From Dethiobacter alkaliphilus AHT 1 (lineage in GTDB: Bacteria > Bacillota > Dethiobacteria > Dethiobacterales > Dethiobacteraceae): DNA of 64,000 nucleotides. Positions 47,997 through 56,182 of this stretch are shown piece by piece; the first letter of the stretch is position 1; every line of letters starts with the position of its first letter. The stretch spans positions 186,001-250,000 of the forward strand of contig NZ_ACJM01000001.1 of the NCBI RefSeq assembly GCF_000174415.1, given 5' to 3'. A program made the position numbers and the translations under genes. The notes beneath the pieces are model-generated. The model made no database searches, had not been told where the DNA came from, and saw nothing but the letters and a program-made list of their open reading frames with translations.

Positions 47997-48818
47997 ATGG
48001 TGGAGCGGGTTATGCAGCTGCTGACTGTGTTAAGTTGGCGCGATATTTTGGATATTGTCCTTGTTACATTCATTTTCTATAAAGCCATTATCCTCATCCG
48101 GGGGACCCGGGCCGAGCAGTTGGTTAAAGGCCTGGCTGTGCTGCTTATTGCCACGGTGTTAAGCGGTCAGCTGGGGCTGGCTACCTTTAACTGGGTTCTG
48201 GAATCGGTGATGACCATCGGTTTGGTGGCCATTCCCATTGTTTTTCAGCCGGAGCTTCGGCGCGGTTTGGAAACTCTGGGCCGCGGCAAGATATTTACCC
48301 GCAGCAGTTATCTCTACGGTGAAAAAGATTTCGAACCGATGCTCGATGAGCTGATTAAAGCCATTCAGGTACTGGTGAAAAAGAAGCTGGGCGCCCTCAT
48401 TGTGTTGGAGAGGGAGACAGGCCTAAATGAATTTATTGAAACCGGCATTTCCATTGACGGGCAAATCAGTGCGGAACTTTTGATTAACATCTTTTTATCC
48501 CGCAGCCCCTTGCATGACGGCGCTGCCATTATCCGCGGCAACCGCCTGATGGCCGCCGGTTGCTATCTGCCCCTTACGGAAAATCCTAATCTCAGCAAGG
48601 AGCTGGGCACCCGGCACCGCGCCGCCTTAGGAGTTTCTGAACACTCCGATGCGGTGGCCATTATTGTTTCTGAGGAAACGGGTGTTGTCTCTCTGACCAC
48701 CAATGGTAAGCTGACCCGCTACCTGGATGAAAAAACACTGAAGCAGATGCTTATTAACCTGTGTAAGCCGCCATCCAATACGCTCAGCTTCTGGCAATGG
48801 AGGTCGACGGAATCATGA
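47997..48818 (+). CDS. cdaA: Diadenylate cyclase CdaA
   Basis: 273 aa; makes c-di-AMP from two ATP. Three N-terminal membrane helices (about 17-80), a short coiled linker, then the DAC domain with DGA (174-176) and RHR (206-208), the two catalytic motifs. It is the first gene of the cdaA-cdaR-glmM order found in many Firmicutes, in which GlmM binds and inhibits CdaA. AGGAGGTGAGG precedes ATG 47997. Confidence 0.95.
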   Translation: MVERVMQLLTVLSWRDILDIVLVTFIFYKAIILIRGTRAEQLVKGLAVLLIATVLSGQLGLATFNWVLESVMTIGLVAIPIVFQPELRRGLETLGRGKIFTRSSYLYGEKDFEPMLDELIKAIQVLVKKKLGALIVLERETGLNEFIETGISIDGQISAELLINIFLSRSPLHDGAAIIRGNRLMAAGCYLPLTENPNLSKELGTRHRAALGVSEHSDAVAIIVSEETGVVSLTTNGKLTRYLDEKTLKQMLINLCKPPSNTLSFWQWRSTES

Positions 48819-49738
48819 TGGATCGCCTCCTGAAAAACAACACTGTCGTAAAAGTATTTGCTTTCTTTCTGGCGCTAATGCTGTGGCTTTATGTTTCCGG
48901 CGAGCGGGCGCTGCCCGATGCTACCCTGCCGGTTCGCAACGTACCCCTTAATTACCGCAATCTTGATGATCAGTTGGCGATAATGCAAATTCCTGAAGAA
49001 ATAGACGTTGTTTTGCGCGGACGGCCCAATATTCTGCAGGATCTTACACCGCAAAGCCTTAACGTTTATGTGGATCTGCAGGACCTGGGAGAGGGCCGGC
49101 ACAGTCTGACTCCCCGGGCGGAGGTGCCCCGCGGTGTGCATGTCAGTGTCTTTAATCCCTCGCAGGTGCAGGTGGAGTTGGAGGAAGTGGAATCACCTCA
49201 GGAAAATGTTGTCCTGGAGATTATCGGCACGCCGGATCCCGGCTTTGTGATGGGAGAGCCGCGCATCATTCCCGATTCTGTCTTTGTGCGCGGGCCGCGG
49301 TCAGTATTGGCTGAAGTGGACCGGGTACTGGCAATTATTAATGTGGATGGTGCAGACGGCGACCGGGTACAGATGGTCCCGGTGCGCGCCATTGATACTA
49401 TGGGTCAGGAAGTAGAAGGCGTGGTGGTAAATCCCGGCATGGTGGAAGTGATGATCCCCTTCTCCGAGCCGCAAAAAACAGTTCCCATCCGGGTACCTAT
49501 GGACGGAGAGCCGGCAGAGGGCTATCAGGTAAAAAGGACCAATCTGCAACCCGCTGAAGTGACTATACAGGGGTCGGAAGAAAACATTGCCGCAATTGAT
49601 GAAGTTGTTACGGAGCGGGTTGATATCACCGATGCTTCGGACAAACTAACCTTTGAGCTTTCGCTGATACCGCCGGAAGGGGTGGAGCTGCTTTATGACG
49701 GCCCTGTAAACGCGGAAATAGAAATAGACCAGGAGTAG
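48815..49738 (+). CDS. cdaR: CdaR, YbbR-domain regulator of CdaA
   Basis: About 307 aa. One N-terminal membrane anchor (VVKVFAFFLALMLWLYVSG) precedes three or four YbbR repeats, each about 80 residues, facing outward (recurrent P-V-x-V/I-P and VxVxG/P-x-x-x-x-L patterns). It modulates CdaA through the membrane. ATG 48815 overlaps the cdaA stop codon. The upstream ATG 48797 forms part of the ribosome site. Confidence 0.9.
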   Translation: MMDRLLKNNTVVKVFAFFLALMLWLYVSGERALPDATLPVRNVPLNYRNLDDQLAIMQIPEEIDVVLRGRPNILQDLTPQSLNVYVDLQDLGEGRHSLTPRAEVPRGVHVSVFNPSQVQVELEEVESPQENVVLEIIGTPDPGFVMGEPRIIPDSVFVRGPRSVLAEVDRVLAIINVDGADGDRVQMVPVRAIDTMGQEVEGVVVNPGMVEVMIPFSEPQKTVPIRVPMDGEPAEGYQVKRTNLQPAEVTIQGSEENIAAIDEVVTERVDITDASDKLTFELSLIPPEGVELLYDGPVNAEIEIDQE

Positions 49739-49741
49739 CAT

Positions 49742-49770
49742 TTGTCAGAAATCAACAGGTATGCTATACT
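49742..49770 (+). promoter_or_regulatory. Promoter of glmM directly after cdaR
   Basis: TTGTCA (49742-49747), a 17-bp spacer and TATACT (49765-49770). Transcription from here would give a leader of about 175 nt before the ribozyme cleavage site, containing a hairpin at about 49796-49830. Confidence 0.6.
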
Positions 49771-49950
49771 AAGATGATTTTGTCTGCAACACCGGGGACG
49801 GTTCTTGCTGTTGCACAGCGGGAGCCGTCCTATAGTATGCAGGCATTTCTAATAGTACCTAAAGAGGTCCTGTAGCATATGATGGCTAATGAGTCCGTGC
49901 TGATGACTACCGGGATAAAGGGGTGATGATTATCGACAGCTGCATAGCGA

Positions 49951-50090
49951 AGCGCCAGAACACGTGTTTTGCGTGTTGACGAGGGGGAGGTTTATCGAAT
50001 TTTTCGGCGGATGCCTCCCGGCCTGCCACGGCCGTAAGGAACCTACAAAACCGATGAGTGATCAGCGGGACAAAGGGGTTTGCAGTGGCT
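49951..50090 (+). ncRNA. glmS-class self-cleaving ribozyme in the glmM leader
   Basis: Sequence matches the glmS ribozyme core in order. The cleavage site is A49951/G49952 (A-GCGCC). The AACACG/CGUGUU stem is followed by GACGAGG, then GGUUUAUCGA, UCGGCGGAUGCCUCCCGG, a small GGCC hairpin, CCGUAAGG, the CCGAUGA-GUGA-UCAGCGG stem and ACAAAGGGG. All strictly conserved blocks known to me are present, so it should cleave with GlcN6P. It is followed by the same AAAGGAGATTCATAA ribosome-site context as the glmS gene, indicating duplication of the whole leader. Confidence 0.9.
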
Positions 50091-50214
50091 TATTTGTGTT
50101 TGCAATAAAAAGAAAATTATTTCGTTCCTCTATGTTTATTGACGCTGCATTACAAATACTAAGGTGAAATCATTTTTGCAGTGTAACAGTGTGTCATCGA
50201 AAGGAGATTCATAA

Positions 50215-51558
50215 ATGGGAAAAATGTTTGGCACAGACGGAATCCGCGGTGTTGCCAACCGGGAACTGACGCCGGAAATTGCTTATAAAATGGGCAGAGT
50301 AGCCGGATATGTACTGGCAAAGAATAATAACGGCGGCAATGATTTTATTATTGCCCGTGATACCCGGGTTTCCGGGCAAATGCTGGAAGGTGCCCTGGTT
50401 GCCGGCCTTACTTCGGTAGGAGTTAATGTGCATCTTGCGGGAGTGATTTCCACTCCGGCTGCAGCTTACCTTACCAAAGAGTTGGATGGTTGCGGCGGTG
50501 TAATGATCTCCGCCTCCCATAACGCCTATCCGGATAACGGTATTAAATTTTTTAGTGCCGACGGTTTTAAGCTCCCTGACAGAGTAGAGGAAGAAATGGA
50601 AACCCTTTACTTTCAGGAAGTTGATAACCTGCCGCGCCCGGAAGCCGGTGATGTTGGCCGGGTTTGCCATGACACTACCGCGGAGGAGCGCTACCTTAAA
50701 TATCTTTTATCTACTGTGCCTTGTCGTTTTGACGGCATTAAAATTGTCCTGGACTGTGCCAACGGCGCAGCATTTCGCCTGGGGCCCCAGGCATTTCAAA
50801 CCCTTGGTGCAGACGTAATTGCAATTAATGACGCTCCCGACGGGGTTAACATCAATCATAACTGCGGCTCTACCTATCCGGAAGCCATTGGTCAGGCTAT
50901 CCGCGAAAACAACGCTCAGCTTGGTTTTACATTTGACGGGGATGCCGATCGGGTTTTAGCCGTTGATGAAGCAGGAAACCTGGTAGACGGTGATGCCATT
51001 ATGACCATCTTAGCCATGTCCCTTAAGGAAAAAGGGCTTCTGAAAAATAATGCGGTGGTTGCCACTGTGATGAGTAACTTAGGTCTGGAGAAAGCTGCAC
51101 AGGCGCAGGATTTCAAACTGCTGCGCACAAAAGTAGGTGACCGCTACGTTCTGGAGCAAATGCAGGCGGGGGGCTATTGTATCGGCGGAGAACAATCCGG
51201 CCATATCATTTTGTTGGATTACAACACCACCGGTGACGGTGTGTTAACTGCTCTGCAACTGGCTGCAGTGGTAGCAGAAAAAAATCAGTCCCTGTCCCAG
51301 CTTGCTTCTCACTTTACCCGTTATCCTCAGGTCTTGGTAAATTGCCGTGTTGGCTCCCGCGAAGGTTGGGATACAAACAGCCGCATCAAACAGGCAATGC
51401 AGGATGTGGAAGAAAAACTGGCGGGCCGGGGCCGGTTGCTGGTACGCCCCTCGGGAACTGAGCCTTTAATCCGTGTGATGCTTGAGGGTCAGGATGAAGA
51501 AGAGTTGAATGTGATGGCAAACGGCCTGGCGGAGATTATTAAAGAAGAACAGGCTTAA
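50215..51558 (+). CDS. glmM: Phosphoglucosamine mutase
   Basis: 447 aa; converts GlcN-6-P to GlcN-1-P for peptidoglycan precursors. Active-site Ser101 (ISASHNAYPDNG), metal loop DGDADR (Asp241, 243, 245), sugar-binding GGEQSGH and phosphate-binding RPSGTEPLIRVM are intact. In Firmicutes GlmM also binds CdaA. Its mRNA leader carries a glmS-class ribozyme, so its own substrate is predicted to trigger cleavage of its message. Confidence 0.96.
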   Translation: MGKMFGTDGIRGVANRELTPEIAYKMGRVAGYVLAKNNNGGNDFIIARDTRVSGQMLEGALVAGLTSVGVNVHLAGVISTPAAAYLTKELDGCGGVMISASHNAYPDNGIKFFSADGFKLPDRVEEEMETLYFQEVDNLPRPEAGDVGRVCHDTTAEERYLKYLLSTVPCRFDGIKIVLDCANGAAFRLGPQAFQTLGADVIAINDAPDGVNINHNCGSTYPEAIGQAIRENNAQLGFTFDGDADRVLAVDEAGNLVDGDAIMTILAMSLKEKGLLKNNAVVATVMSNLGLEKAAQAQDFKLLRTKVGDRYVLEQMQAGGYCIGGEQSGHIILLDYNTTGDGVLTALQLAAVVAEKNQSLSQLASHFTRYPQVLVNCRVGSREGWDTNSRIKQAMQDVEEKLAGRGRLLVRPSGTEPLIRVMLEGQDEEELNVMANGLAEIIKEEQA

Positions 51559-51592: not shown

Positions 51593-51598
51593 TATAAT
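51593..51598 (+). promoter_or_regulatory. Candidate -10 box of glmS
   Basis: TATAAT, with only a poor -35 (CTATCA, 17 bp upstream). It would start transcription a few bases before the ribozyme cleavage site, the normal geometry for a glmS leader. Confidence 0.45.
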
Positions 51599-51607
51599 TA
51601 CATTTAA

Positions 51608-51745
51608 AGCGCCTGAACACGTATTTTAGTGTTGACGAGGAGGAGGTTTATCGAAGTTTTCGGCGGATGCCTCCCGGTCTGCCACGACCGTAAGGAAACC
51701 TACAAAACCGTTGAGTGATCGGCGGGACAAAGGGGTTTCCGGTGG
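51608..51745 (+). ncRNA. glmS ribozyme in the glmS leader
   Basis: Canonical GlcN6P-dependent ribozyme. The cleavage site is A51608/G51609, followed by the same ordered core blocks as the glmM copy. Helices differ but keep pairing: the P4-like stem is CCGUUGA/UCGGCGG here, and the closing stem is GGAAACC/GGUUUCC. Similarity to the glmM copy continues past the core into GTGGCTTATTT.TGTTTG. Confidence 0.96.
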
Positions 51746-51831
51746 CTTATTTCTGTTTGTAACAAACCCCTGTTTTCGGGATTAAAAATAAGTCGGCGCA
51801 GACCGCGCCTGCTAAAGGAGATTCATAAACA

Positions 51832-53658
51832 ATGTGTGGAATTGTTGGCTATATCGGGGGGCAGCAAGCCTACCCCATTTTAATAGAGGGCTTATCAAAG
51901 CTGGAGTACCGTGGATATGATTCTGCAGGGGTAGCACTGCTGGATGACAGTGGCGTTGAAATTATCAAGTCGGTGGGTCGCCTACAGAATCTGGAAGAGA
52001 AAGTTGGTAATGAAGTGCCGGCCGGCACCATGGGAATCGGCCACACCCGGTGGGCAACCCACGGCCGTCCCTGTGATGAAAATGCTCATCCCCACAGTGA
52101 CTGCTCCGGCCAATATGTGGTTATACACAACGGAATTATCGAAAACTATCATGCACTGCGGGAGTGGCTTACTTCCGTGGGTCATACTTTCCGTTCTGAA
52201 ACAGATACGGAAGTGTTGGCTCATCTGGTGGAGCATTACTTCCAGGGCGATTTAAAACAAACGGTGCGTCAGGTTCTGGAGAAAGTGACCGGCTCTTATG
52301 GTATTGTTGTTATGAGTGAAAGGGATCCCGATCGCCTGATTTGTGCCCGTAAAGACAGTCCGCTTATCATCGGGCTGGGAGATGGTGAAAATTTTATTGC
52401 CTCCGACATCCCCGCCCTGCTGAAATATACCCGGGATACCATTATCCTGGAAGACGGTGAACTGGCGGAAGTAACCCGGGACAGTGTTGTTGTGGAAGGC
52501 AGTGACGGAAAGCAGCTGCAAAAAGAAATTTACCATGTTAAATGGGATGCTGTGGCAGCTGAAAAAGAAGGCTATGACCATTTCATGCTCAAGGAAATTC
52601 ATGAGCAGCCCAAAGCAATTCGTGATACCCTGCGGGGTCGGCTCACCGAGGGCGGTTTGGTAAACCTGGCAGAACTAAATCTGGCTGAAGACCAAATCTG
52701 GCAACTGCGAAAAATTGTGATGGTTGCCTGCGGGACTGCGTATCATGCCGGTTTGGTAGGCAAATATGTCTTTGAAAACCTCCTGCGTCTCCCGGTGGAG
52801 GTAGACGTGGCCTCAGAATTTCGCTACCGCGATCCGCTGCTGGGGGAAGATACCCTGGTGGTTGTTATCAGCCAGTCCGGTGAAACAGCCGATACGCTGG
52901 CGGCCATGCGTCTTGCCAGGCAAAAGGGAAGCCCTGTGGTGGCCATCACCAATGTAGTGGGCAGTACCGTTTCCCGTGAAGCGGACCGGGTACTCTATAC
53001 CTGGGCAGGCCCGGAAATTGCGGTGGCATCCACAAAAGCTTATACCACTCAGTTGGTTGTTCTCTACCTTCTGGCTCTGCAGTTGGGCCAGACCGCAGGG
53101 ATTGTGGCGGAAGAAGAGATAAAAAACATGACTGAGGCTCTGCAAAACATTCCTGCTGATGTGGAACGCATACTGGAGCAGGAAGAATCCGTTAAAGACT
53201 TTGCCAACCATATTAAAGATTGGGAACATGCCTTTTTTATCGGACGTGGCCTTGATTACGCCGTAGCGTTGGAAGGCTCCCTTAAGTTAAAGGAGATTTC
53301 CTATATTCATGCCGAAGCATATGCCGCCGGTGAGCTAAAGCATGGCACACTGGCTTTGATTACCGAAAACATCCCCATAATCGCTTTGGCTACCCAACCT
53401 GCACTATACGAAAAGATGTGGAGTAACATTAAGGAAGTAAAGGCCCGCGATGCCTATGTTTTTGGGATAGTTACCGCAGGGGACGATGAAACCGAAAAAG
53501 AAGTAGATGTAATCTTTGCAATACCAAAAACTATTCCGATTCTTTCTCCAATCCTCTCTGTGATTCCTTTACAGTTAATTTCCTACCATGCATCGGTTTT
53601 GCGTGGTTGCGATGTTGATAAACCCAGGAATCTGGCAAAATCGGTAACAGTGGAATAA
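51832..53658 (+). CDS. glmS: Glutamine-fructose-6-phosphate aminotransferase (isomerising)
   Basis: 608 aa; makes GlcN-6-P from Fru-6-P and glutamine, the first amino-sugar step. The N-terminal Ntn domain starts at catalytic Cys2 (MCGIVGYIGG). Two SIS domains follow (SQSGETADTLAAMR; AEAYAAGELKHG), with C-terminal LAKSVTVE. AAAGGAG precedes the ATG. Expression is controlled by the ribozyme in its leader: when GlcN6P is high the message is cut and degraded. Confidence 0.97.
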   Translation: MCGIVGYIGGQQAYPILIEGLSKLEYRGYDSAGVALLDDSGVEIIKSVGRLQNLEEKVGNEVPAGTMGIGHTRWATHGRPCDENAHPHSDCSGQYVVIHNGIIENYHALREWLTSVGHTFRSETDTEVLAHLVEHYFQGDLKQTVRQVLEKVTGSYGIVVMSERDPDRLICARKDSPLIIGLGDGENFIASDIPALLKYTRDTIILEDGELAEVTRDSVVVEGSDGKQLQKEIYHVKWDAVAAEKEGYDHFMLKEIHEQPKAIRDTLRGRLTEGGLVNLAELNLAEDQIWQLRKIVMVACGTAYHAGLVGKYVFENLLRLPVEVDVASEFRYRDPLLGEDTLVVVISQSGETADTLAAMRLARQKGSPVVAITNVVGSTVSREADRVLYTWAGPEIAVASTKAYTTQLVVLYLLALQLGQTAGIVAEEEIKNMTEALQNIPADVERILEQEESVKDFANHIKDWEHAFFIGRGLDYAVALEGSLKLKEISYIHAEAYAAGELKHGTLALITENIPIIALATQPALYEKMWSNIKEVKARDAYVFGIVTAGDDETEKEVDVIFAIPKTIPILSPILSVIPLQLISYHASVLRGCDVDKPRNLAKSVTVE

Positions 53659-53677: not shown

Positions 53678-54496
53678 ATGCTAAAACCGGAAAACTTTTT
53701 TGAGCTTCAGGATAGTCCCTTTGCATCTCTCTTCAATGATTGTCAGTATGTATGGGACGCATTAAAAAAGCTCCCTGAATATATTAAAACAACAGTTAAA
53801 GGTAATGTGGCAGATATCCGTCAGGGCCAGACTTTTATTAACAAAACGGTGGTCCTTTATGAAGGCCGGGTTTTAGAGAGCGGGTTTGCCATCGACACAT
53901 CGGGTAAGAAGCCTCAGGTACTAATAGACGGTGCAGTACTGGCAGGAGCCAGTATCATCTATGCGGGCTCAGTTTTAATGGATGACCTTATTTATATCGG
54001 ACAGGGAACCGTGGTAGAATCCGGTGCCTACATTAGCGGCCCCACCTATATCGGCAATAATACCGAGGTTCGGCAAGGAGCCTATATCCGCGGCCAGGTC
54101 CTGGTGGGGGATAACTGTGTGGTGGGCCATACCACGGAAATTAAATCCTCCGTTATGCTGGGAGGAAGCAAAGCAGGGCACTTTGCCTATATCGGCGACA
54201 GTATTCTGGGTAAGGTTAACCTGGGTGCCGGCACAAAAATTGCCAACCTGAAGATTACCGGTTCGGCAGTAAAAGTCAGCGCCGCAGGTGTCAGCCATGA
54301 AACGGGACTGAGAAAATTTGGGGCCATCCTCGGTGATGGAGTAGAAACGGGCTGTAACAGCGTTACAACCCCCGGTACCCTGCTTAGTAAAAATGTCCTT
54401 CTTTACCCCAACAGTACCGCCCGGGGATATTATCCTGCCCAAAAGATTGTAAAATCAAAAAATGTCCAGGAAATACTGGACTTCGACTTCGCTTAA
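53678..54496 (+). CDS. Left-handed beta-helix acyltransferase, GlmU C-domain-like
   Basis: 272 aa. A ~75-residue N-terminal lead-in precedes hexapeptide-repeat coils similar to the acetyltransferase half of GlmU (VVGHTTEIKSSVMLGGSKAGHFAYIGDSILGKVNLGAGTKIANL, including the catalytic-type His in AGHFAYIGD). There is no pyrophosphorylase domain. Its position 19 bp after glmS suggests it acetylates GlcN-1-P or a related sugar phosphate, possibly as half of a split GlmU (inference). AAGGAGG precedes the ATG. Confidence 0.75.
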   Translation: MLKPENFFELQDSPFASLFNDCQYVWDALKKLPEYIKTTVKGNVADIRQGQTFINKTVVLYEGRVLESGFAIDTSGKKPQVLIDGAVLAGASIIYAGSVLMDDLIYIGQGTVVESGAYISGPTYIGNNTEVRQGAYIRGQVLVGDNCVVGHTTEIKSSVMLGGSKAGHFAYIGDSILGKVNLGAGTKIANLKITGSAVKVSAAGVSHETGLRKFGAILGDGVETGCNSVTTPGTLLSKNVLLYPNSTARGYYPAQKIVKSKNVQEILDFDFA

Positions 54497-54499
54497 GCC

Positions 54500-55399
54500 A
54501 TGAAACAGATTGTGGATGTCCTAAAGGACAGTGGCCCGCTGACGGGAAAGGAACTCTTAAGGGCAGTGCCCATGGAAGACCTTTCCCTTTGGGCGGCCTG
54601 CCGCCGCTCAGAGCAGATTTTCAGCCGTATCGTGGGAAGACGCTACCTCAGGCTTGACATGCGGGTGGATGAATATGCCCGTCTGTCTCCCTCAATTATG
54701 CGGGAGTTCTATAATTATACTGTTTTGGGTACAGCAGACCAGGTACAAGAAGTTGAAGCCAGGGCAGAAGAACTGCAAATTGAGTTGGCGCGGATAAGCA
54801 GAGAGAAATTTTCTCTGGCACAAAAATCCATGGAGCAGTTGGTGGACGGTCTGGAATGTAGGGAGCAGATAAAAAACTCTGCTGCTTTCATGATAGCTGG
54901 AGATGTGGTTTACGGCATGGCCCATGTGGAGCCCCGCCCAGAAATCTCCACGGGGGAACTGGTTAAAGGATCGGATCTGGATATTATAGTGGTGGTGGAG
55001 GGTTTGCCTGAAAAAGAGGTGGCAGTTTTGGATGCTGCCATCCAACGGGAAAAATACCGTTTGTTGACGAGCCCGGCATGGAGGGAAGAGATTGATTCCA
55101 TTATCAAGGATACCGCCAGGGTCCGGGAGCAATTGAAATTTCAGGATTTTAAAGCCATGGTGGCCAGTAAAATTCTGCACGAAGCGGATTTTCTTTGGGG
55201 CAGCCATGACATTTTTGGCCGTATTAAAGAGATGGTTAAGCAAAGCGGCATTCCGGAAAAAATCAGGGCCATGGAAGAAAAAGCCGTGGAGAACCGCAAG
55301 GCAGCAGAAGAATGTCTCCTGCAGTCTCCCCCCAGCCTTTCCCGGGATGAGGCTATGAAGCTATTTTTAACCACAGAAGAAAAAGAGGAGATATTTTAA
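54500..55399 (+). CDS. Unassigned protein with nucleotidyltransferase-like domain
   Basis: 299 aa. Residues ~1-60 look like a winged helix (GPLTGKELLRAVPMEDLSLWAACRRSEQIFSRI). A helical coiled middle follows, then AGDVVYGMAHVEPRP and GSDLDIIVVVEGL, which resembles the GS...DxD core of the pol-beta-type nucleotidyltransferase fold. I recognise no named family. It starts 3 bp after the acyltransferase gene, with almost no ribosome site of its own, so translational coupling is likely. A role in amino-sugar control or nucleotide transfer is speculative. Confidence 0.6.
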   Translation: MKQIVDVLKDSGPLTGKELLRAVPMEDLSLWAACRRSEQIFSRIVGRRYLRLDMRVDEYARLSPSIMREFYNYTVLGTADQVQEVEARAEELQIELARISREKFSLAQKSMEQLVDGLECREQIKNSAAFMIAGDVVYGMAHVEPRPEISTGELVKGSDLDIIVVVEGLPEKEVAVLDAAIQREKYRLLTSPAWREEIDSIIKDTARVREQLKFQDFKAMVASKILHEADFLWGSHDIFGRIKEMVKQSGIPEKIRAMEEKAVENRKAAEECLLQSPPSLSRDEAMKLFLTTEEKEEIF

Positions 55400-55415: not shown

Positions 55416-56144
55416 ATGAAAATTATTGTTGTTGAGGATTACCGGGAGATGAGCAAGAAGGCTGCCGACATTGTGGCCAGTCAGGTAATCTTAAAAAATG
55501 ATTCGGTTCTGGGTTTGGCCACCGGATCTACCCCGGAAGGAATGTACAGCCGTCTGGTAGAGATGCACCGGGAAGGAACGCTGGATTTTAGCAGCATTCA
55601 GTCCTTTAACCTGGATGAATATCTGGGCCTGGATCCCGAGCATTCCCAAAGCTACCACCATTATATGCATCATCATCTCTTCAACCATATCAATACCGAC
55701 CCCAACAATGTACATATTCCCTGGGGTCAGGCAAGTGATATGGCGGCTTACTGCCGGAACTACGATCAACAAATTGCCGCTGCCGGCGGCATCGACCTGC
55801 AGGTTCTGGGCATCGGAGGAAACGGACATATCGGTTTTAATGAGCCCGATGAGTTTTTAAGCGCCGGCACTCATGTGGTAGACTTAACCGAAGAAACGGT
55901 GGAAGCCAACAGCCGCTTTTTTGCTTCCCGGGATGAAGTCCCTAAAAAAGCCGTCACCATGGGTATGGGCTCAATCATGAAAGCAAAAAAGATCCTGCTT
56001 CTGGCCAGCGGCAAAGGAAAGGCTCAGGCCATAAAAGATACGGTAAGCGGCAACGTCTCCACCCGGGTGCCCGCTTCTTTTCTCCAGCTCCATGGGGACG
56101 TAACGTTAATTCTCGATGAAGAAGCGGCGGCATTATTACCCTAG
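55416..56144 (+). CDS. nagB: Glucosamine-6-phosphate deaminase
   Basis: 242 aa; converts GlcN-6-P to Fru-6-P and ammonia, the reverse of GlmS without glutamine. Signatures are GLATGSTPEGMYSRLV, FNLDEYLGL (catalytic Asp), and VLGIGGNGHIGFNEPDE (with the active-site His). Co-location with glmM and glmS puts synthesis and disposal of the ribozyme ligand in one cluster. AGGGAGG precedes the ATG, and a terminator follows. Confidence 0.95.
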   Translation: MKIIVVEDYREMSKKAADIVASQVILKNDSVLGLATGSTPEGMYSRLVEMHREGTLDFSSIQSFNLDEYLGLDPEHSQSYHHYMHHHLFNHINTDPNNVHIPWGQASDMAAYCRNYDQQIAAAGGIDLQVLGIGGNGHIGFNEPDEFLSAGTHVVDLTEETVEANSRFFASRDEVPKKAVTMGMGSIMKAKKILLLASGKGKAQAIKDTVSGNVSTRVPASFLQLHGDVTLILDEEAAALLP

Positions 56145-56153
56145 ATTTCTACT

Positions 56154-56182
56154 ACCCTGCAGATTTGCGGGGTTTATTTTAT
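56154..56182 (+). terminator. Terminator of the glm-nagB cluster
   Basis: ACCCTGCA / TGCGGGGT with one mismatch, followed by T-rich sequence. Confidence 0.7.

Follow-up and report, generated by a model that had tools for sequence, protein, structure and literature searches.

A second glmS ribozyme at the head of a predicted glmM-glmS-nagB operon, and a possible link between ribozyme position and the enzyme that makes glucosamine 6-phosphate

The glmS ribozymes constitute a class in which cleavage, triggered by glucosamine 6-phosphate (GlcN6P), leads to loss of the mRNA and lower expression (PMC10043782). In a 64,000-nucleotide stretch of DNA from Dethiobacter alkaliphilus AHT 1 (in the following, the window), the original prediction placed a second member of this class in the leader of glmM, i.e., ahead of a gene whose product consumes GlcN6P, and pointed out that destruction of this mRNA by the substrate of the enzyme would be counter-intuitive. 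What, then, is controlled by a GlcN6P-responsive ribozyme in this position?

The two ribozymes, here named RZ1 (glmM leader) and RZ2 (glmS leader), are the only glmS ribozymes found in a whole-genome search with the RF00234 covariance model (3,112,004 bases, 34 contigs; no third copy). The match of RZ1 scores 105 bits, to be compared with a gathering score of 37 bits, and its alignment spans model positions 1-167, i.e., all 167. It recovers all conserved blocks of the ribozyme in order as well as the predicted cleavage position, A49951/G49952 in the motif A/GCGCC, both as originally claimed, and the invariant columns are common to 21 relatives. The score is near those in the family, where ribozymes located on glmS reach about 107-122 bits and those on nagB about 103-110 bits. 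In an Rfam search of the glmM leader RF00234 was the only notable match; the rest were chance-level snoRNA matches far under their cut-offs, and a different RNA element was rejected.

Coordinates of the ribozyme helices and of the surrounding features are listed in Table 1. Among 34 helix pairs checked in RZ1, one A-G mismatch is found in P4.1, while the outer end of P4 displays one G-G and one gapped position; both defects are peripheral. When 22 ribozymes from the family and its neighbours are compared, 94.1% of the cells are paired and 12 pairs are changed on both sides, where none of 500 shuffles yielded a paired fraction or covariation score as high. The original prediction had made its case depend on intact core pairs: the helices hold, with strong covariation, except for the one P4.1 pair and the outer part of P4. 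The sequence blocks of the double-pseudoknot core are present and almost invariant, which places them beyond the reach of covariation. A chance match is ruled out by the full-length 105-bit score and the covariation, and RZ1 is confirmed at the sequence level as a complete glmS ribozyme, for which GlcN6P-dependent cleavage is predicted.

Table 1. Features at the glmM-nagB locus of the window and genomes assigned to each ribozyme position (positions are those of the window)
Feature	Position or genomes	Strand	Details
T-box leader, RF00230	38964-39216	-	112 bits
cdaA, diadenylate cyclase; upstream neighbour outside the switch	47997..48818	+	TIGR00159 266.9 bits, cut-off 188.8
cdaR-like gene; upstream neighbour	48815..49738	+	follows cdaA, similar to relatives' gene; no NCBIfam match; named by context
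Promoter-like site TTGTCA-17-TATACT, just past cdaR stop	49742..49770	+	10/12 consensus matches; predicted
17-bp hairpin in 5' part of leader, without T run	49795..49831	+	fold of 49777-49951, z -3.65
RZ1, RF00234 match in glmM leader	49940-50093	+	E 1.5e-23 (64-kb window search)
RZ1 helix P1	49959-49964 with 49972-49977 (49959..49977)	+	99.2% of cells paired, 3 pairs with both-side changes
RZ1 helices P2	49986-49990 with 50014-50018; 49995-49998 with 50004-50007 (49986..50018)	+	100% paired, almost invariant
RZ1 helix P3	50019-50023 with 50030-50034 (50019..50034)	+	one pair C-G, U-A in RZ2: compensatory
RZ1 helices P4 and P4.1	50038..50083 (P4.1: 50051-50057 with 50062-50068)	+	P4.1 96.1% paired, P4 70.9%
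glmM, phosphoglucosamine mutase	50215..51558	+	TIGR01455 585.5 bits, cut-off 447.55
RZ2, glmS ribozyme in glmS leader	51597-51750	+	RF00234 119.5 bits; predicted cleavage A51608/G51609
glmS, glutamine-fructose-6-phosphate transaminase	51832..53658	+	TIGR01135 846.6 bits, cut-off 418.05
glmU-like gene, acetyltransferase hexapeptide-repeat half only	53678..54496	+	TIGR03992 154.9 bits (below cut-off); PF00132
ORF between glmU-like gene and nagB	54500..55399	+	no Pfam/NCBIfam match
nagB, glucosamine-6-phosphate deaminase family; proposed aminating synthase	55416..56144	+	NF001684 334.6, TIGR00502 301.6 bits, both over cut-off
Terminator-like hairpin, operon end	56154..56173	+	8-bp stem then TTTATTTTATT
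Ribozyme ahead of glmS (15)	RZ2 of this genome, G001, G002, G004, G005, G011, G012, G013, G017, G019, G022, G025, G027, G029, G046		
Ribozyme in glmM leader (3)	RZ1 of this genome, G009, G015		
Ribozyme directly ahead of nagB (6)	G006, G007, G008, G010, G014, G016		four other genera
Ribozyme at contig end (1)	G018		

RZ2 resides within the 273 nt that separate glmM from glmS. From G+1 to column 155 the two ribozymes differ at only 14 of 143 columns, while upstream of G+1 they differ at 9 of 12; this difference in conservation inside and outside the ribozyme, together with the compensatory change in P3, suggests selection on RZ1. The 14 internal differences and the differing upstream flanks also rule out that RZ1 is an assembly artefact duplicating RZ2. 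At their downstream ends, the glmM and glmS leaders are identical over 16 nt including the ribosome-binding site (AAAGGAGATTCATAAA, present in two exact copies in the window, at 50200..50215 for glmM and at 51814 for glmS), which implies that leader material was once copied between them. RZ1 could be a copy of the glmS leader, particular to this lineage, that arrived ahead of glmM and is either confined in its action to this gene or nearly neutral, with the nagB cases described below being unrelated. The 85.2% identity of RZ1 and RZ2 is in line with such a copy, as is a poorly resolved ribozyme tree, in which most branches are without support and which leaves the age of RZ1, as a recent copy of RZ2 or an older element, undecided. 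We regard this explanation as improbable, because of the signs of selection on RZ1 and because a second genus (see below) harbors its sole ribozyme in the same glmM-leader position, behind the same promoter-like site.

RZ1 ends near 50093 and is followed by 121 nt of ordinary leader (50094-50214), which holds the glmM ribosome-binding site. In a consensus match the only strong promoter-like site is that between cdaR and RZ1, no convincing terminator was seen on the + strand before the hairpin at the end of the gene cluster, and the only extragenic terminator-like site is located past nagB. Consequently, all of glmM, glmS, the glmU-like gene and nagB would lie behind RZ1, and a single transcript glmM-[RZ2]-glmS-glmU-like-ORF-nagB is likely on these predicted signals. 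The 17-bp hairpin sits between the promoter-like site and RZ1; it is not a terminator and could not be aligned in G009 and G015. The ORF upstream of nagB, for which a similar gene is absent from the related loci, encodes 299 aa with a GSDLDIIVV stretch that recalls nucleotidyltransferases. The initial statement that RZ1 controls glmM and not glmS thus holds with respect to its location in the glmM leader, but not for glmS, which belongs to the predicted operon headed by RZ1 and in addition keeps its own RZ2.

This arrangement also bears on an earlier suggestion, that cleavage of RZ1 separates cdaA-cdaR mRNA from glmM, or lowers GlmM such that CdaA is released and c-di-AMP is raised. The three genes are adjacent, and CdaA and GlmM are known to form a complex in Bacillus (cited in PMC6171935). 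However, given the promoter-like site between cdaR and RZ1, such cutting is unnecessary as a main purpose, even if it would still occur on read-through transcripts, and in four relatives (G006, G007, G010 and G016) cdaR and glmM are adjacent with no ribozyme between them. A role of this kind is accordingly very unlikely.

The interpretation that we consider probable is that RZ1 is an operon-wide off switch triggered by GlcN6P, and that the ribozyme follows the source of GlcN6P, whichever enzyme this may be. Upon build-up, GlcN6P would bind to RZ1 and the leader would cut itself at A49951/G49952. In Bacillus subtilis, RNase J is reported to degrade the 5'-OH RNA that results from cleavage of the glmS transcript. 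RNase J is encoded also in the genome studied here, where the downstream RNA with its 5'-OH end would presumably be degraded from that end. The output of the whole UDP-GlcNAc operon would then fall, with glmS struck twice, via RZ1 and RZ2, and with GlmM being carried along as the product of the first gene rather than being repressed by its own substrate. The ribozyme would stay with the gene or operon responsible for making GlcN6P, i.e., with glmS where present and, in genomes that have lost full-length glmS, with nagB, either directly or in a glmM-led operon. A switch of opposite sign, with a 3' fragment made more stable by cleavage and a resulting rise in glmM, would be metabolically sensible in that GlmM consumes GlcN6P, which is the only point in its favor; known glmS ribozyme cleavage lowers expression (PMC10043782) and RNase J is encoded, which makes this alternative barely credible. 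In B. subtilis, more GlmM is thought to relieve cleavage of the glmS ribozyme (PMC6171935), and shut-off of glmM together with the operon would therefore add positive feedback. This feedback is an open weakness of any interpretation in which RZ1 acts on glmM.

The positions of the ribozyme in related genomes are relevant to this operon-wide switch. In the taxonomic class of this organism, 24 of 98 genomes harbor the ribozyme, and two copies are found only in the genome of the window. The gene order around these 25 ribozymes places 15 ahead of glmS, three in glmM leaders and six directly ahead of nagB, with one at a contig end (Table 1). Six of the genomes, G007, G009, G010, G014, G015 and G016, have no full-length glmS (completeness 90-97%; most relatives are fragmented assemblies, with completeness of 87-99%). 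Within the family, nagB is found in exactly nine genomes, namely those in which the ribozyme heads nagB directly or via an operon; the nine genomes in which the ribozyme is found only on glmS have none. Loss of glmS and a nagB located behind the ribozyme are associated (p 0.009 in a Fisher test that disregards shared ancestry). No nagA over the cut-off was found in any of the 20 genomes of this family (f1). Three relatives, G008, G006 and G018 (L172, L173 and L174), harbor a full-length but divergent glmS, with about 50% identity to that of the window and without a ribozyme; G006 and G008 thereby combine a ribozyme on nagB with a divergent glmS elsewhere in the genome.

The comparison of glmM leaders across relatives, proposed with the original prediction, showed that the ribozyme is also present in the glmM leader of G009 and G015, ahead of glmM-glmU-nagB. 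These two genomes (97% and 96% complete) constitute the sister genus g10; neither has a full-length glmS, and the glmM-leader ribozyme is their only one. The order in G015 is cdaR, promoter-like site, ribozyme, glmM, glmU and nagB, and that in G009 is the same from the promoter-like site onward, where the contig ends before cdaR. The promoter hexamers and their TGCTATACT context are common to the window, G009 and G015; local alignment of the 3' leader of glmM in the window with those of G009 and G015 is not beyond chance. Without RZ2-glmS and the extra ORF, the order in the window equals that of g10, i.e., the glmS-less state of g10 with its glmM-leader ribozyme can be derived from a window-type operon by loss of RZ2-glmS. 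The order of events between the window and g10 is left undecided by the ribozyme identities (RZ1-RZ2 as above, RZ2-G009 86.4%, RZ1-G009 84.4%) and the tree. With regard to the puzzle of a substrate that destroys the mRNA of its own enzyme, glmM-glmU-nagB in these glmS-less relatives points to the operon as its best explanation.

In a wider sample of the phylum, the ribozyme was found in 272 of 398 genomes. The genes behind 108 of the best-scoring ribozymes, a sample biased towards high scores rather than random, are 99 glmS, three nagB, four isolated GlmS isomerase domains, one glnA and one fructose-1,6-bisphosphatase gene, in agreement with the earlier claim that positions other than glmS are rare. 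Two further nagB-ribozyme cases, beyond the 108, are found in genus g134. Three genomes of this genus (G193, G222 and G339; family f25) harbor the ribozyme on nagB without full-length glmS, and f25 genera g236 and g66 contain the ribozyme together with full-length glmS. The ribozyme is on nagB, without full-length glmS, also in G223 and G401 of family f78, where G223 has a glmS fragment. Taken together, all 11 examined genomes from three families that have the ribozyme and lack any GlmS (these five and the six of the family named above) carry nagB behind the ribozyme, while full-length GlmS is retained in the genome of the window, G006 and G008. As a control, no ribozyme was found in 80 other nagB loci, among the matches listed, with a model that recovered all 108 known ribozymes. 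As in family f1, nagA is absent from G223 and G401; it is present in g134.

NagB usually favors deamination. A GlcN6P off switch placed on nagB would have the correct sign only when GlcN6P is the product of NagB, and from gene content and ribozyme position we infer that NagB would work in the aminating direction, substituting for GlmS. D. alkaliphilus grows autotrophically (PMC10376724) and must therefore make GlcN6P; its autotrophy and the missing nagA fit with synthesis by NagB, which is not required in this organism as it retains glmS. In contrast, NagB behind the ribozyme may be a normal deaminase, with glmS-less species importing GlcNAc and the ribozyme adjusting recycling instead of synthesis. 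A precedent is provided by Akkermansia, in which glmS is absent and yet NagB, a deaminase only, is unable to make GlcN6P at physiological conditions, such that GlcNAc is needed (PMC5902328), and the nagA of g134 points in the same direction; in that genus NagB could also be catabolic. However, nagA is absent from all f1 genomes, G223 and G401, and an off switch responding to GlcN6P would stop a deaminase at high substrate concentration, which is the wrong sign for catabolism. A purely deaminating role is on balance rather unlikely.

The remaining exceptions involve other genes. In G381, G297, G230 and G336 (L084, L134, L136 and L152) the ribozyme precedes a GlmS isomerase domain that lacks the glutaminase domain; G230, G297 and G381 have this domain only and no full-length GlmS, which suggests an ammonia-dependent form in these three genomes. 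In G118 (L155 / L170), a glmS ribozyme of 101 bits is located about 50 nt ahead of glnA, encoding a type I glutamine synthetase, the product of which is a co-substrate of GlmS. In G418 (L156 / L171), one of 100 bits precedes, by about 200 nt, a gene for fructose-1,6-bisphosphatase (PF01950), the enzyme that makes Fru6P, the other substrate of GlmS. Both genomes harbor another ribozyme on glmS. G365 (L116 and L161) has two full-length glmS genes with one ribozyme each.

The cdaA-cdaR-glmM-glmS region of B. subtilis (RF00234) resembles the window in the full model match, cleavage motif, helices and neighbourhood, and RZ2 represents this ordinary case; unlike B. subtilis, the window has an extra ribozyme one gene earlier, a separate promoter-like site and nagB at the operon end. 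Reportedly, all but two of 463 glmS ribozymes surveyed by McCown et al. in 2011 reside in glmS mRNAs. The locus of the window may be one of these two exceptions, which, as RZ1, lie outside glmS leaders. Here, unlike those rarities, the pattern is repeated, i.e., on nagB in three families, in glmM-led operons in two genera, and on isomerase domains, glnA and the fructose-1,6-bisphosphatase gene. In the literature searched, no report of a glmS ribozyme on glmM or nagB was found. The window also resembles tandem riboswitches in having two sensors of one class on one predicted transcript, but RZ1 and RZ2 are separated by a gene and do not form a tandem leader; glmS is listed among the classes not found in tandem (PMC9481103). 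The ribozyme class is thus known, while its repeated attachment to nagB, to isolated isomerase domains and to a glmM-led operon appears to be new or nearly so.

From the above discussion, we lean towards a model in which the glmS ribozyme regulates GlcN6P supply, rather than glmS in itself, and moves with this function, after loss of GlmS, to NagB (operating in reverse, on ammonia) or to an isolated GlmS isomerase domain, and in which the double-ribozyme glmS-plus-nagB operon of the window represents a state from which that of g10 could derive by loss of RZ2-glmS. If true, this would be a case where a regulatory RNA keeps its ligand and changes its gene, and it would widen the regulon of a ribozyme class under study as a target for antibacterials. 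In defined lineages, it would become possible to test whether NagB has replaced GlmS. More generally, the position of the ribozyme may reveal which enzyme makes GlcN6P and would indicate the in-cell direction of a reversible enzyme, where a NagB under a GlcN6P off switch should be a synthase.
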